NCBI GenBank assembly: GCA_947648765.1
Contig: CANSOY010000009.1
Span: 1-35,820, forward strand
Origin: an uncultured Clostridium sp.
Lineage (GTDB): Bacteria > Bacillota > Clostridia > TANB77 > CAG-508
DNA length: 35,820 nt
Reading direction: 5' to 3'
In this document: positions 13,558-16,876 of the stretch, piece by piece
Layout: the number at the start of each line of letters is the position of its first letter
Numbering within the stretch: the first letter of the stretch is position 1
Program-made: the position numbers and the translations under genes
The notes under the pieces: model-generated
Told to the model about the DNA's origin: nothing
The model's database searches: none
What the model saw: only the letters and a program-made list of their open reading frames with translations

Positions 13558-14118
13558 ATGAATAGTATATTAGAATTTGCTAATAGAGAAGAATTTAGAA
13601 ACTGGTTATCTGAAAATTGTTTATCCAATCATGGTGTTTGGCTTTTATTTAGAAAATCTGGAGAACCAAAGACAATAAAAGCAAGTGAAGCACTTGAAGA
13701 AGCACTATGTTTTGGTTGGATTGACGGTCAGATTGTGAGTATAGATGATAAAACCTATAAAAAATATTTTTCTATGCGTAGAGATAAAAGCAAATGGTCT
13801 GAAAAAAATAAAAACTTAACTAAAGTTCTTGAAGAAAGAGGAATTATGACTGAATACGGTAGAAAGAAAATAGAAGAAGCAAAATCTAATGGACAATGGA
13901 ATGCTTCAAAATCCTTAGAAATTACAGAGGAACATATCAGAGAATTATCTGTTATATTAAAAAAATACGAACTTGCATATAAAAATTTTCAGTCAATGTC
14001 CCCATCCGTAAAGAAAACCTATGCCAAAGCATACTTTGATGCTAAAACAGAAGATGGAAGAAAAAATAGAATTGCTTGGATGGTAGATAGACTTAACAAA
14101 AATTTGAAACCAATGTAA
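13558..14118 (+). CDS. YdeI/OmpD-associated (OmdA) family protein
   Basis: 186 aa. Family motifs: FANREEFRNWLSENCLSNHGVWLLFRK, ALCFGWIDGQ, YFSMRRDKSKWSEKNKNL and the C-terminal MSPSVKKTYAKAYFDAKTEDGRKNRIAWMVDRL. Members are cytoplasmic, usually named YdeI/OmdA, and some are linked to stress or bacteriocin/antimicrobial peptide tolerance; the molecular function is unknown. AGAGGGGA lies 7 nt before the ATG. Its last 37 codons lie inside the 1079-bp tandem duplication, so a 3' fragment is repeated at 15086. Confidence 0.88.
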   Translation: MNSILEFANREEFRNWLSENCLSNHGVWLLFRKSGEPKTIKASEALEEALCFGWIDGQIVSIDDKTYKKYFSMRRDKSKWSEKNKNLTKVLEERGIMTEYGRKKIEEAKSNGQWNASKSLEITEEHIRELSVILKKYELAYKNFQSMSPSVKKTYAKAYFDAKTEDGRKNRIAWMVDRLNKNLKPM

Positions 14119-14156
14119 TAATAGATGAATTATATGTAAAGGAAAGGAGTTCCCAA

Positions 14157-14414
14157 ATGGCAGAATTAAGTTCATTAAAAAATATTGGAAAAGAAATAGA
14201 AAGAAAACTAAAAACAATTGGGATAAATTCAGCAGAGGAATTAAAAAAAATTGGAAGTAAAGATACGTGGTTTCGATTAAAATTAAAATATCCAGAAATA
14301 TGCTTAGTACACTTATACACTCTGGAAGGTGCAATTCGTGATATCGAATATAATCAGTTATCGGAAGAAACAAAAAGAGAGTTAAAGGCATTTACAGACC
14401 AATGGAAAGACTAA
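14157..14414 (+). CDS. TfoX C-terminal-domain protein, copy 1
   Basis: An 85-aa protein resembling the TfoX/Sxy C-terminal domain: LSSLKNIGKEIERKLKTIGINSAEELKKIGSKDTWFRLKLKYPEICLVHLYTLEGAI. The LxxLxNIGxxxExxLxxxGI start is a helix-hairpin-helix-like element. Full TfoX regulates competence in gamma-proteobacteria; stand-alone C-terminal domains in Firmicutes have no proven role. GGAAAGGAG precedes the ATG by 8-9 nt. It lies 38 bp after the ydeI-like gene, so the two are probably cotranscribed. Confidence 0.82.
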   Translation: MAELSSLKNIGKEIERKLKTIGINSAEELKKIGSKDTWFRLKLKYPEICLVHLYTLEGAIRDIEYNQLSEETKRELKAFTDQWKD

Positions 14415-14510
14415 AAACTACAATCTGAAATGAGTTGCATTACGGAAGAAAAAATAATTGTTATTATAAAAATTATTTTTATTTTATATATTCCATACGT
14501 AGCAATTCAA

Positions 14511-14559
14511 AGAGAAGTAAATTCAAAGATTTGCTTCTTTTTTCGATGTAGGATATAAT
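14511..14559 (+). promoter_or_regulatory. Composite terminator/promoter before Nudix gene, copy 1
   Basis: A 12-bp hairpin (14511-14522 with 14529-14540, one G-T pair at 14518/14533, loop TCAAAG) ends in T6. TTGCTT within the 3' arm (14531-14536), 17 nt and TATAAT (14554-14559) make the Nudix promoter. ATG 14558 falls in this -10 box, so translation starts later, at 14588. Confidence 0.75.
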
Positions 14560-14587
14560 GAGTAGCAACAAAAGGGAGGAAATGAAG

Positions 14588-15034
14588 ATGGGATACATTT
14601 CAGAAATGAGAAAATACATTGGACATAGTCCAATCATGGCAACCGCTACAACTGCTATTATATATGATAACGAAAAAGGAATTTTATTTGAAAAACGTAC
14701 AGACAATGGCTTGTGGTGTGTTCCAGGAGGTGCGATTGAACTTGGAGAAAGGCTGGAACAAGCACTAGTAAGAGAAATAAAAGAGGAAACAGGGCTCGTG
14801 ATAGCAAACCCACAATTATATGATGTGATTGCCAATGTGCATATGATTTATCCCAACCAAGACGAGGTATACTATACCGATGTAGTCTATGTCGTTACTG
14901 ACTATACGGGAACATTGAGCCATGATGCAGAAAGTACAGAACTCAAATGGTTTCCGATTAACGAATTACCAGAAAATATCATGCAAACACAGATTGCCTA
15001 TATTACAAGATTTGTTCAACCACTGATTAAATAA
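14588..15034 (+). CDS. Nudix hydrolase, copy 1
   Basis: 148 aa. Complete Nudix box GGAIELGERLEQALVREIKEETGL (fits GX5EX7REUXEEXGU), so the Mg-binding glutamates are intact. The N-terminal YISEMRKYIGHSPIMATATTAIIYD and later YYTDVVYVVTDYTG resemble Bacillus-type NUDIX proteins acting on nucleoside diphosphate derivatives; the substrate is undetermined. The start is ATG 14588, 8 nt after GGGAGG (14574-14579). A TTGACA/TAAAAT promoter begins 14 bp after the stop. Confidence 0.92.
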   Translation: MGYISEMRKYIGHSPIMATATTAIIYDNEKGILFEKRTDNGLWCVPGGAIELGERLEQALVREIKEETGLVIANPQLYDVIANVHMIYPNQDEVYYTDVVYVVTDYTGTLSHDAESTELKWFPINELPENIMQTQIAYITRFVQPLIK

Positions 15035-15047
15035 ACCGAAAATGCGA

Positions 15048-15077
15048 TTGACAAACTGCTCTCGTTTATGGTAAAAT
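15048..15077 (+). promoter_or_regulatory. Promoter created at duplication junction (copy of GNAT promoter)
   Basis: TTGACA (15048-15053), 18 nt, TAAAAT (15072-15077). It is the copy-1 version of the promoter at 16127. Because the duplication junction lies 8 bp after the -10, this promoter now reads into the ydeI fragment and copy 2 of tfoX-C, without the structured leader. Confidence 0.7.
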
Positions 15078-15085
15078 ATACCTAT

Positions 15086-15197
15086 CGTAAAGAAAACCTA
15101 TGCCAAAGCATACTTTGATGCTAAAACAGAAGATGGAAGAAAAAATAGAATTGCTTGGATGGTAGATAGACTTAACAAAAATTTGAAACCAATGTAA
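15086..15197 (+). pseudogene. 3' fragment of ydeI-like gene
   Basis: It repeats the last 36 codons plus stop of the gene at 13558-14118 (VKKTYAKAYFDAKTEDG ... NLKPM). It has no start codon or ribosome binding site of its own and is a by-product of the tandem duplication. Confidence 0.9.
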
Positions 15198-15235
15198 TAA
15201 TAGATGAATTATATGTAAAGGAAAGGAGTTCCCAA

Positions 15236-15493
15236 ATGGCAGAATTAAGTTCATTAAAAAATATTGGAAAAGAAATAGAAAGAAAACTAAAAACAATTGG
15301 GATAAATTCAGCAGAGGAATTAAAAAAAATTGGAAGTAAAGATACGTGGTTTCGATTAAAATTAAAATATCCAGAAATATGCTTAGTACACTTATACACT
15401 CTGGAAGGTGCAATTCGTGATATCGAATATAATCAGTTATCGGAAGAAACAAAAAGAGAGTTAAAGGCATTTACAGACCAATGGAAAGACTAA
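15236..15493 (+). CDS. TfoX C-terminal-domain protein, copy 2
   Basis: Identical to the 85-aa protein at 14157-14414, with the same ribosome binding site. It differs only in context: instead of following an intact ydeI-like gene it is downstream of the promoter at 15048 and a ydeI fragment. Confidence 0.82.
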   Translation: MAELSSLKNIGKEIERKLKTIGINSAEELKKIGSKDTWFRLKLKYPEICLVHLYTLEGAIRDIEYNQLSEETKRELKAFTDQWKD

Positions 15494-15589
15494 AAACTAC
15501 AATCTGAAATGAGTTGCATTACGGAAGAAAAAATAATTGTTATTATAAAAATTATTTTTATTTTATATATTCCATACGTAGCAATTCAA

Positions 15590-15638
15590 AGAGAAGTAAA
15601 TTCAAAGATTTGCTTCTTTTTTCGATGTAGGATATAAT
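15590..15638 (+). promoter_or_regulatory. Composite terminator/promoter before Nudix gene, copy 2
   Basis: Exact copy of 14511-14559: a 12-bp hairpin with T6, TTGCTT (15610-15615), 17 nt, TATAAT (15633-15638). Confidence 0.75.
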
Positions 15639-15666
15639 GAGTAGCAACAAAAGGGAGGAAATGAAG

Positions 15667-16113
15667 ATGGGATACATTTCAGAAATGAGAAAATACATTG
15701 GACATAGTCCAATCATGGCAACCGCTACAACTGCTATTATATATGATAACGAAAAAGGAATTTTATTTGAAAAACGTACAGACAATGGCTTGTGGTGTGT
15801 TCCAGGAGGTGCGATTGAACTTGGAGAAAGGCTGGAACAAGCACTAGTAAGAGAAATAAAAGAGGAAACAGGGCTCGTGATAGCAAACCCACAATTATAT
15901 GATGTGATTGCCAATGTGCATATGATTTATCCCAACCAAGACGAGGTATACTATACCGATGTAGTCTATGTCGTTACTGACTATACGGGAACATTGAGCC
16001 ATGATGCAGAAAGTACAGAACTCAAATGGTTTCCGATTAACGAATTACCAGAAAATATCATGCAAACACAGATTGCCTATATTACAAGATTTGTTCAACC
16101 ACTGATTAAATAA
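15667..16113 (+). CDS. Nudix hydrolase, copy 2
   Basis: Identical in protein sequence to 14588-15034 (148 aa, intact Nudix box). The cell therefore carries two identical, separately promoted copies if the assembly is right. The start is chosen as in copy 1. Confidence 0.92.
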   Translation: MGYISEMRKYIGHSPIMATATTAIIYDNEKGILFEKRTDNGLWCVPGGAIELGERLEQALVREIKEETGLVIANPQLYDVIANVHMIYPNQDEVYYTDVVYVVTDYTGTLSHDAESTELKWFPINELPENIMQTQIAYITRFVQPLIK

Positions 16114-16126
16114 ACCGAAAATGCGA

Positions 16127-16156
16127 TTGACAAACTGCTCTCGTTTATGGTAAAAT
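16127..16156 (+). promoter_or_regulatory. Promoter of GNAT gene and its leader
   Basis: A consensus TTGACA (16127-16132), an 18-nt spacer and TAAAAT (16151-16156). The expected start, about 16163-16165, coincides with the first base of the predicted leader helix P1. Confidence 0.75.
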
Positions 16157-16162
16157 ATACCT

Positions 16163-16298
16163 ATGTTTTAAGAGTATGTCTAATAGCATTTTGCTAGAGC
16201 GACATAGGATAACAGGCGTTATCTACACGAATAAAGTAAGAAATAAACCTTACAAGGAGTCTTAAACCAAGATTTCTTTGTGAGGTATTTTTTATTTC
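16163..16298 (+). promoter_or_regulatory. Structured leader RNA with switchable terminator (riboswitch or attenuator candidate)
   Basis: Reading the RNA by eye gives: P1 (16165-16173 with 16260-16267, 8 bp, one bulged U at 16169) closing a junction; P2 (16175-16180 with 16201-16206, 6 bp, topped by UAGC/GCUA at 16184-16187/16193-16196); P3 (GAUAAC 16208-16213 with GUUAUC 16218-16223, loop AGGC); P4 (GUAAG 16236-16240 with CUUAC 16249-16253). The 3' strand of P4 is also the 5' arm of an 11-bp terminator stem (16247-16257 with 16276-16286, two G-U pairs), followed by A and six U. P4 and the terminator therefore exclude each other. A 29-codon reading frame (16176-16265) also crosses the leader, but only an AAGAG, far too close to the ATG, could act as ribosome binding site. 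I do not recognise the RNA class. Confidence 0.7.
16247..16298 (+). terminator. Conditional terminator in GNAT leader
   Basis: The stem 16247-16257/16276-16286 with an 18-nt loop is followed by ATTTTTTATTT. It ends 18 bp before the GNAT start codon (its U-tract abuts the AAGGAGG), so read-through is needed for expression. Confidence 0.75.
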
Positions 16299-16315
16299 AA
16301 AAGGAGGAAAGAAAA

Positions 16316-16876
16316 ATGAATTATGTGAAAAAATTAGTCGGAGATAATATCTATCTTGCACCGATCCGAACCGAAGACGCAGAGCAATTTGTGGAGTGGC
16401 TAAACGATTTTTCCACCACCGACTATATTGGTCGTAGTGGAGCCATTGTAGGGCTAGAAGGAGAAGTCGAATTCTTAAAGAAAATGCAAGCAGAAGAAGC
16501 CAATTTCAGTATCGTACGTTTAGCAGACGATAAACTAATTGGTACCGTTTCACTCAATCGAGTAGACCATATTCGTAGAATTGCATCGCTTGGTATTTTC
16601 ATAGGAGACAAGGAAAGTAGAGAAAAAGGTTATGGGACAGAAGCGGTACGTCTAATTTTAGATTATGGTTTTTCGTACCTAAACTTAAACAATATTGAAT
16701 TATCTTGCCTTGCTTGCAATGAAAGAGCACATCGTTGCTATCTAAAATGTGGTTTCAAGGAATATGGTAGAAGAAGACAAGCAGCCTTTACCAATGGTAA
16801 ATATTATGACCTCATTTTTATGGATATTCTAGCAAAAGAGTGGACAGAGAGTTATATCCGCAATAAAGAGGTTTAA
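16316..16876 (+). CDS. GNAT-family N-acetyltransferase (RimJ/RimL-like)
   Basis: 186 aa. Starts LVGDNIYLAPIRTEDAEQFVEWLND, as in RimJ/RimL-type acetyltransferases. It contains IGTVSLNRVDHIRRIASLGIFIGD and the acetyl-CoA motif EKGYGTEAVRLILDYGF (about residues 103-119), then NIELSCLACNERAHRCYLKCGFKEYGRRRQAAFTNGKYYD. Homologues acetylate protein N-termini or small molecules including antibiotics; the substrate here is unknown. ATG 16316 is chosen because AAGGAGG (16301-16307) stands 8 nt upstream, whereas the earlier GTG at 16280 lies within the leader terminator. Expression is probably controlled by that leader. Confidence 0.9.
   Translation: MNYVKKLVGDNIYLAPIRTEDAEQFVEWLNDFSTTDYIGRSGAIVGLEGEVEFLKKMQAEEANFSIVRLADDKLIGTVSLNRVDHIRRIASLGIFIGDKESREKGYGTEAVRLILDYGFSYLNLNNIELSCLACNERAHRCYLKCGFKEYGRRRQAAFTNGKYYDLIFMDILAKEWTESYIRNKEV

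Follow-up and report, generated by a model that had tools for sequence, protein, structure and literature searches.

A compact ykkC-like leader RNA ahead of acetyltransferase and other resistance-type genes in Clostridia, a candidate orphan riboswitch

The leader RNA of a GNAT acetyltransferase gene, carried by a 35,820-nucleotide stretch of DNA from an uncultured Clostridium sp. (contig CANSOY010000009.1; hereafter the window), is probably an orphan riboswitch of the ykkC superfamily, with a compact, subtype-2-like aptamer, a predicted transcriptional ON mechanism and a ligand that would be phosphorylated, a reading to which we assign a probability of about 0.78. The standard case of a single RNA fold giving rise to sensors for very different ligands is that of ykkC, and the compact variant keeps most of the mapped pocket contacts, dispenses with a hairpin at the heart of the known fold, and occurs beside full-length forms that appear to control the same genes. 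It is common, being found in 43% of the sampled genomes of one order of small-genome Firmicutes, where it lies ahead of resistance-type genes, and knowing the ligand would show by what signal these bacteria choose to turn such genes on.

The elements of the leader are listed below, with helices named as in ykkC subtype 2 and the names used in an earlier note on this DNA given in brackets.

16127-16156, forward strand: promoter, TTGACA (16127-16132), 18-nt spacer and TG-extended TAAAAT (16151-16156); 11 of 12 matches, predicted start at about 16163
16166-16266, forward strand: aptamer, predicted compact ykkC-like four-way junction (fold; covariance model R2, 79.9 bits, E 4.8e-15, the window being among the R2 training sequences)
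16167-16173 (UUUAAGA) with 16260-16266 (UCUUAAA), forward strand: P0 (P1 of the note); fold, compensatory changes in 5 of 7 pairs in the diverse set
16175-16206, forward strand: P1 (P2 of the note), stem 16175-16180/16201-16206 with UA / GAGC internal loop; fold, 100% of cells paired, 6 of 6 pairs covary
16184-16188 with 16192-16196, forward strand: P1b, the inner hairpin of P1; fold
16207-16224, forward strand: P2 (P3 of the note), stem 16207-16213/16218-16224; fold and covariation
16224-16228, forward strand: UACAC at the end of P2, its last C equivalent to PRPP contact C77; invariant in 44 of 44 sequences
16236-16253, forward strand: hairpin in the place of P3 (P4 of the note), lacking the AUAAAAG loop, stem 16236-16240/16249-16253, with the 3' strand (16249-16253) doubling as terminator arm; fold and covariation
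16256-16260, forward strand: GGAGU joiner from P3 to the 3' strand of P0; invariant in 44 of 44 sequences
16247-16293, forward strand: predicted intrinsic terminator, 5' arm 16247-16263, loop 16264-16268, 3' arm 16269-16286, U6 16288-16293 (fold of 16243-16298, -18.9 kcal/mol); kept in homologues
16302-16307, forward strand: ribosome binding site, AGGAGG region 3' of the terminator, from the sequence
16316-16876, forward strand: GNAT acetyltransferase of 186 aa, the predicted regulated gene (Pfam Acetyltransf_3, E 4.9e-21)

Transcription is predicted to start at the base of P0, as the earlier note had proposed, since the TG-extended promoter ends at 16156 and start is expected near 16163. The promoter scan alone is weak, with two such sites in the region against a mean of 2.4 in shuffled sequences; -10-like boxes lie just upstream of the aptamer in 162 of 170 homologues. 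The promoter is part of a perfect tandem duplication of 1079 bp (14007-15085 and 15086-16164, 100% identical), either a recent event or an assembly artefact, which also carries an 85-aa gene and a NUDIX gene; it ends at 16164, so that the promoter is doubled (15048) and the aptamer is not. The NUDIX gene lies immediately 5' of the leader and is not one of the genes that the aptamer precedes.

When folded alone, positions 16163-16268 give the same arrangement that the note had drawn, in which P0 closes a junction of three hairpins (-23.7 kcal/mol, z -2.8), while the minimum for the full leader (16163-16298) is the terminator fold (-41.1 kcal/mol, z -6.6), with none of 200 shuffles as stable. 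Folding of the growing transcript suggests that the junction is complete at about 16267 and that the terminator wins by about 16287. The 5' arm of the terminator consists of the 3' strand of P3, GGAG and the 3' strand of P0, and junction and terminator therefore cannot coexist. The note's terminator, its U6 tail and its overlap with the 3' strand of P3 are all recovered, but the stem is of 17 bp with one bulge rather than of 11 bp, and the 3' strand of P0 is consumed as well (16260-16263 going into the stem and 16264-16266 into the loop). The transcriptional ON layout, in which by the predicted folds aptamer helices and an intrinsic terminator exclude each other, is upheld and recurs in more than 160 homologues; of 165 leaders, 95% allow at least 14 terminator pairs between the 3' part of the aptamer and the 50 nt that follow it, compared with 9% once this stretch is shuffled (a 7-pair cut-off was discarded for its weak control). 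In such a switch, a phosphorylated small molecule would bind in the junction and stabilise P0 and P3, the terminator could then not form, and RNA polymerase would read on into the gene.

A DNA search of 95 relatives revealed leaders of this kind in the genus, the family and the order. Two covariance models were built, from alignments A2 and A7, after first MAFFT alignments had misplaced P3 and the MFS subtype: R1 from 12 leaders, among them the window's, whose own match is thus by construction, and R2 from 44 diverse leaders, the window's again included. R1 has matches at E <= 0.001 in 167 of the 385 genomes sampled from the order (43%), with up to 5 copies per genome, the genomes other than the window's being the test of the model. 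R2 has matches in 16 of 398 genomes from across the phylum and in 27 of 391 from the class, known ykkC riboswitches counted in. Homologues are also present in other clostridial families, including named Clostridium, Caloramator and Alkaliphilus species, and the leader RNA is, as judged from these models, a widely conserved putative switch in many gut and environmental Clostridia. Pattern matches in an archaeon and in Nitrospinota (L245, L253) have no R2 match and are regarded as chance, and the GNAT relative in Acetoanaerobium has no such RNA upstream. A phage or plasmid origin was considered and set aside: exact patterns have no match in viral_contigs, nor the leader in plasmids.

In the 44 diverse leaders, aligned by fitting to the model and thus leaning towards structure, 91.8% of cells are paired, both partners have changed in a compensatory way at 26 of the 30 pairs, and the covariation score reaches 0.641, against 0.206 for shuffled sequences and at most 0.144 for slid partners. 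The result agrees in 95 distinct leaders from the order and in a set from other families that includes some known ykkC RNAs, and the size of the effect, together with the slid controls, leaves the covariation in little doubt. The homologue search ahead of GNAT genes that the earlier note had suggested has been successful, and neither of the findings that it held to be fatal to its proposal is made, all helices showing compensatory changes and the terminator persisting in relatives as described above.

Within the compact RNA the invariant core comprises A-G, UA, AGC, UACAC and GGAGU, and the smallest forms, L229 among them, measure 73 nt; that of Clostridium tagluense (L240) has 76 nt. Although trained without PRPP or ppGpp RNAs, R1 and R2 align those riboswitches end to end and in register, which identifies P1, P2, P3 and P4 of the note with P0, P1, P2 and P3 of ykkC subtype 2. 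Phylum-wide matches that are not compact are mostly PRPP riboswitches before purE or purC and ppGpp-type riboswitches before gltB and ilvB; among the sites inspected, two purE sites and one purC site carry a guanine aptamer in tandem upstream. It is also of note that two PRPP-type aptamers (L230 and L231, in G1042 and G932) share these genomes at a distance of about 890 bp from each other, with a purC gene behind the first.

The compact RNAs display, in the order expected of the superfamily, P1 with its UA / (G)AGC loop and P1b, then P2, UACAC and P3, with UA, AGC and UACAC in 44 of 44 sequences. In place of the GGGAUAAAAGCCC-type P3 hairpin that docks into P1, a variable hairpin is found in all 44 sequences of A7, the conserved hairpin being kept only in the full-length forms L198, L200 and L220 and in the known classes. 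As in subtype 2, a pyrimidine occupies position 49 (C in 44 of 44) and P0 shows compensatory changes, while A46 of guanidine-I (subtype 1) is replaced by C in 44 of 44. Mapped by hand onto the PRPP structure (PMC6031431), with the numbering of C77, G104 and G105 inferred from the alignment, the equivalents of contacts A5, G6, G48, C49, C77 and G105 show no variation among the 44 sequences, and C78 (replaced by U, G or A), G104 (replaced by A) and the whole P3 S-turn with its AUAAAAG loop are not kept; compact P3 has no alignable counterpart of G96 of that S-turn. The joiner from P3 to P0 is GAG in 44 of 44 compact sequences, against GUAGG in PRPP-type loci.

At both gathering and lax thresholds, Rfam 15 leaves the aptamer of the window leader and ten compact homologues unmatched; the strongest lax hit, caiA (E 0.0017), falls on the AT-rich stretch of terminator and Shine-Dalgarno sequence, misses the aptamer and was rejected. 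The guanidine-I model RF00442 does not match the window leader up to E 10, and the compact forms stay beyond its range even when thresholds are relaxed. Elsewhere in the window, Rfam places a skipping-rope RNA (RF02924, 32290-32381, reverse strand, 55.4 bits). The note's remark that the RNA matches none of the riboswitch classes it could recall, PRPP and guanidine-I among them, thus holds for Rfam, but overlooked that the RNA appears to be a relative of the ykkC scaffold which those two share, a kinship that rests on the models built here, the alignment and shared genes. A literature search, incomplete for subscription journals, returned no GNAT-associated ykkC variant; the compact RNA may thus be a new variant within the superfamily, with some chance remaining that it has been described before.

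Further indications of kinship come from L198, L200 and L220, which retain P1b and P3 of the full ykkC type, yet have ACGAGU as their last nucleotides, similar to the GAGU of compact forms, and which score 41-60 bits against RF00442, whose gathering threshold is 63 bits. The MFS transporter behind the full forms is 48% identical to that behind compact L199, and the GNAT behind them (L220) shares 65% identity with the GNATs that follow compact L224 and L229, and 35% with the window's GNAT. Since full and compact forms serve the same gene families, this suggests that the compact form derives from the full ykkC form, of which these three loci could represent the ancestral state. A pattern for full-length GNAT-type ykkC RNAs (GATAAAAGCC...GACGAGTC) has no match in 289 genomes, so that full forms should be rare or varied there. 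Separately, L202 (1501-1613) and L205 may represent a further orphan setting for ykkC: the full-type RNA there (P0 UUAGGA/UCCUAA) is followed by the gene of a membrane-like protein of 396 aa to which Pfam has no match.

The genes that directly follow the compact RNA are diverse. A non-redundant set of 140 first genes, drawn almost entirely from the order, contains at least 74 GNATs, falling into several unrelated clusters, 24 ABC ATPases, nearest to drrA, 7 MFS transporters, weakly similar to TetA(P), 7 methyltransferases and 11 P-loop kinase-like genes. Rarer partners include an HD-domain protein, a peptidase S51, a class-IV aminotransferase and a Nif3-like protein, as well as a glutaminyl-tRNA synthetase-type gene directly behind the compact RNA of L225, the sole translation gene seen, which could hint at the signal. 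The P-loop kinase-like family (GPQAVGKMTVGQEL), weakly similar to shikimate kinase, recurs behind the RNA (L044, L047, L056, L102, L106, L108, L116, L124, L147, L167, L193, L196). Genes for EamA or TauE/SafE transporters go with ykkC subtype 2d; both families lie outside the 25 commonest Pfam families of first genes here.

A ligand that is itself the substrate of the window's acetyltransferase, as the note had suggested, is difficult to reconcile with this distribution, in which the same RNA precedes unrelated GNAT clusters, ABC and MFS transporters, methyltransferases and the P-loop kinase, and different gene families even within one genome (G774). One aptamer before so many unrelated resistance-type genes makes a shared stress or nucleotide signal more likely than any one enzyme's substrate. 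With PRPP, the contacts that are kept here serve to bind phosphates and metal, which makes a phosphorylated, nucleotide-like ligand the most likely type, a guess from the remaining contacts that we hold at about one half. The AUAAAAG loop of P3 docks into P1 in known ykkC structures, and its absence implies that the pocket must differ from theirs. The broader proposal, namely that this is an unreported, abundant ykkC-derived class in which the docking hairpin has been replaced and a new ligand is sensed, allowing Clostridia to induce unrelated resistance and detoxification genes, seems to us an even bet.

Alternative explanations differ in how much of the structure they take into account. An ordinary terminator beside unrelated hairpins, kept by descent only, could be imagined for a leader that is AT-rich, terminators being common, but every helix covaries and unpaired nucleotides are invariant across 167 genomes and several clostridial families; covariation in three sequence sets already refutes this explanation, to which we give practically no credence. 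Ribosome-dependent attenuation through a leader peptide, or binding of the 30S subunit at the invariant GGAG, is quite improbable: the joiner reads AAGGAGU in the window's family and resembles a Shine-Dalgarno sequence, but outside that family it is CGGAG and closes P3, and helix covariation extends across the whole region. Of 167 leaders, only 18 combine a plausible start and a Shine-Dalgarno-like sequence with an open reading frame of at least 8 codons, at scattered positions, and as starts are not conserved, the leader-peptide version is considered unlikely.

Direct binding of toxic compounds by an antibiotic-like class of aptamer, with each gene detoxifying one of them, is unlikely, though more worthy of attention. 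The genes do resemble resistance determinants (GNATs, drrA-type ABC, MFS weakly similar to TetA(P), methyltransferases, P-loop kinase), and Gd4v, an orphan variant of guanidine-IV, likewise precedes GNAT and MATE genes (PMC9788692); the invariance of the core before unrelated GNAT clusters and transporters nevertheless argues against the binding of many different substrates, and the nucleotides that contact a polyanion are kept. Somewhat doubtful, yet to be taken seriously, is the explanation that a known nucleotide class, the ppGpp (2a) or nucleoside-diphosphate (2c) riboswitch, has been modified by degeneration of P3, so that only the gene set is new. Scaffold and pocket nucleotides are shared, full-length ykkC forms exist before the same MFS and GNAT genes, and some published 2a RNAs are also found before natA-type ABC transporters (PMC5912903), drug-type ABC ATPases accounting for 24 of the 140 first genes here. 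On the other side, the P3 loop and S-turn region is lost, the joiner differs from that of PRPP-type loci in all 44 compact sequences, and no NUDIX or HAD sequence motif, the mark of 2c, occurs among 194 downstream proteins. Biosynthesis operons for amino acids and purines, furthermore, are seen only behind RNAs with a full P3, and no amino-acid operon is among the listed first genes of compact forms. An orphan, compact ykkC-type ON switch remains the preferred reading.

Comparison with known systems places this candidate riboswitch among, and apart from, its presumed relatives. Guanidine-I (RF00442) offers the parent scaffold, with L198, L200 and L220 scoring below its gathering threshold, but compact forms are unmatched, the subtype-2 C replaces A46 and guanidine genes are absent. 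Gd4v is similarly gut-enriched, with GNAT and transporter genes, a terminator switch and an orphan ligand, but has the guanidine-IV fold rather than that of ykkC; the window leader has no match to it in Rfam. The NDP riboswitch (2c), associated with NUDIX and HAD genes (PMC7266159), is likewise a subtype-2 ykkC variant with a nucleotide ligand, and is distinguished from the compact RNA by gene context. The ppGpp riboswitch (2a) has the common scaffold, but 2a-like L206 (gltB) and L207 (ilvB) keep the GGGUUCCG P1b and the P3 loop, unlike the compact RNAs, which also precede other genes. The PRPP riboswitch (2b) differs in its AUAAAAG loop, C78 contact, GUAGG joiner and purine genes (PMC6031431), but shares with the window RNA the P0-P1-P2-P3 four-way junction, the AGUNUACCUAG / GAGCGGUA / UACAC core, the predicted ON switch via a terminator and the six invariant contacts listed above, among them the C at the equivalent of position 49 that is the published marker of subtype 2.
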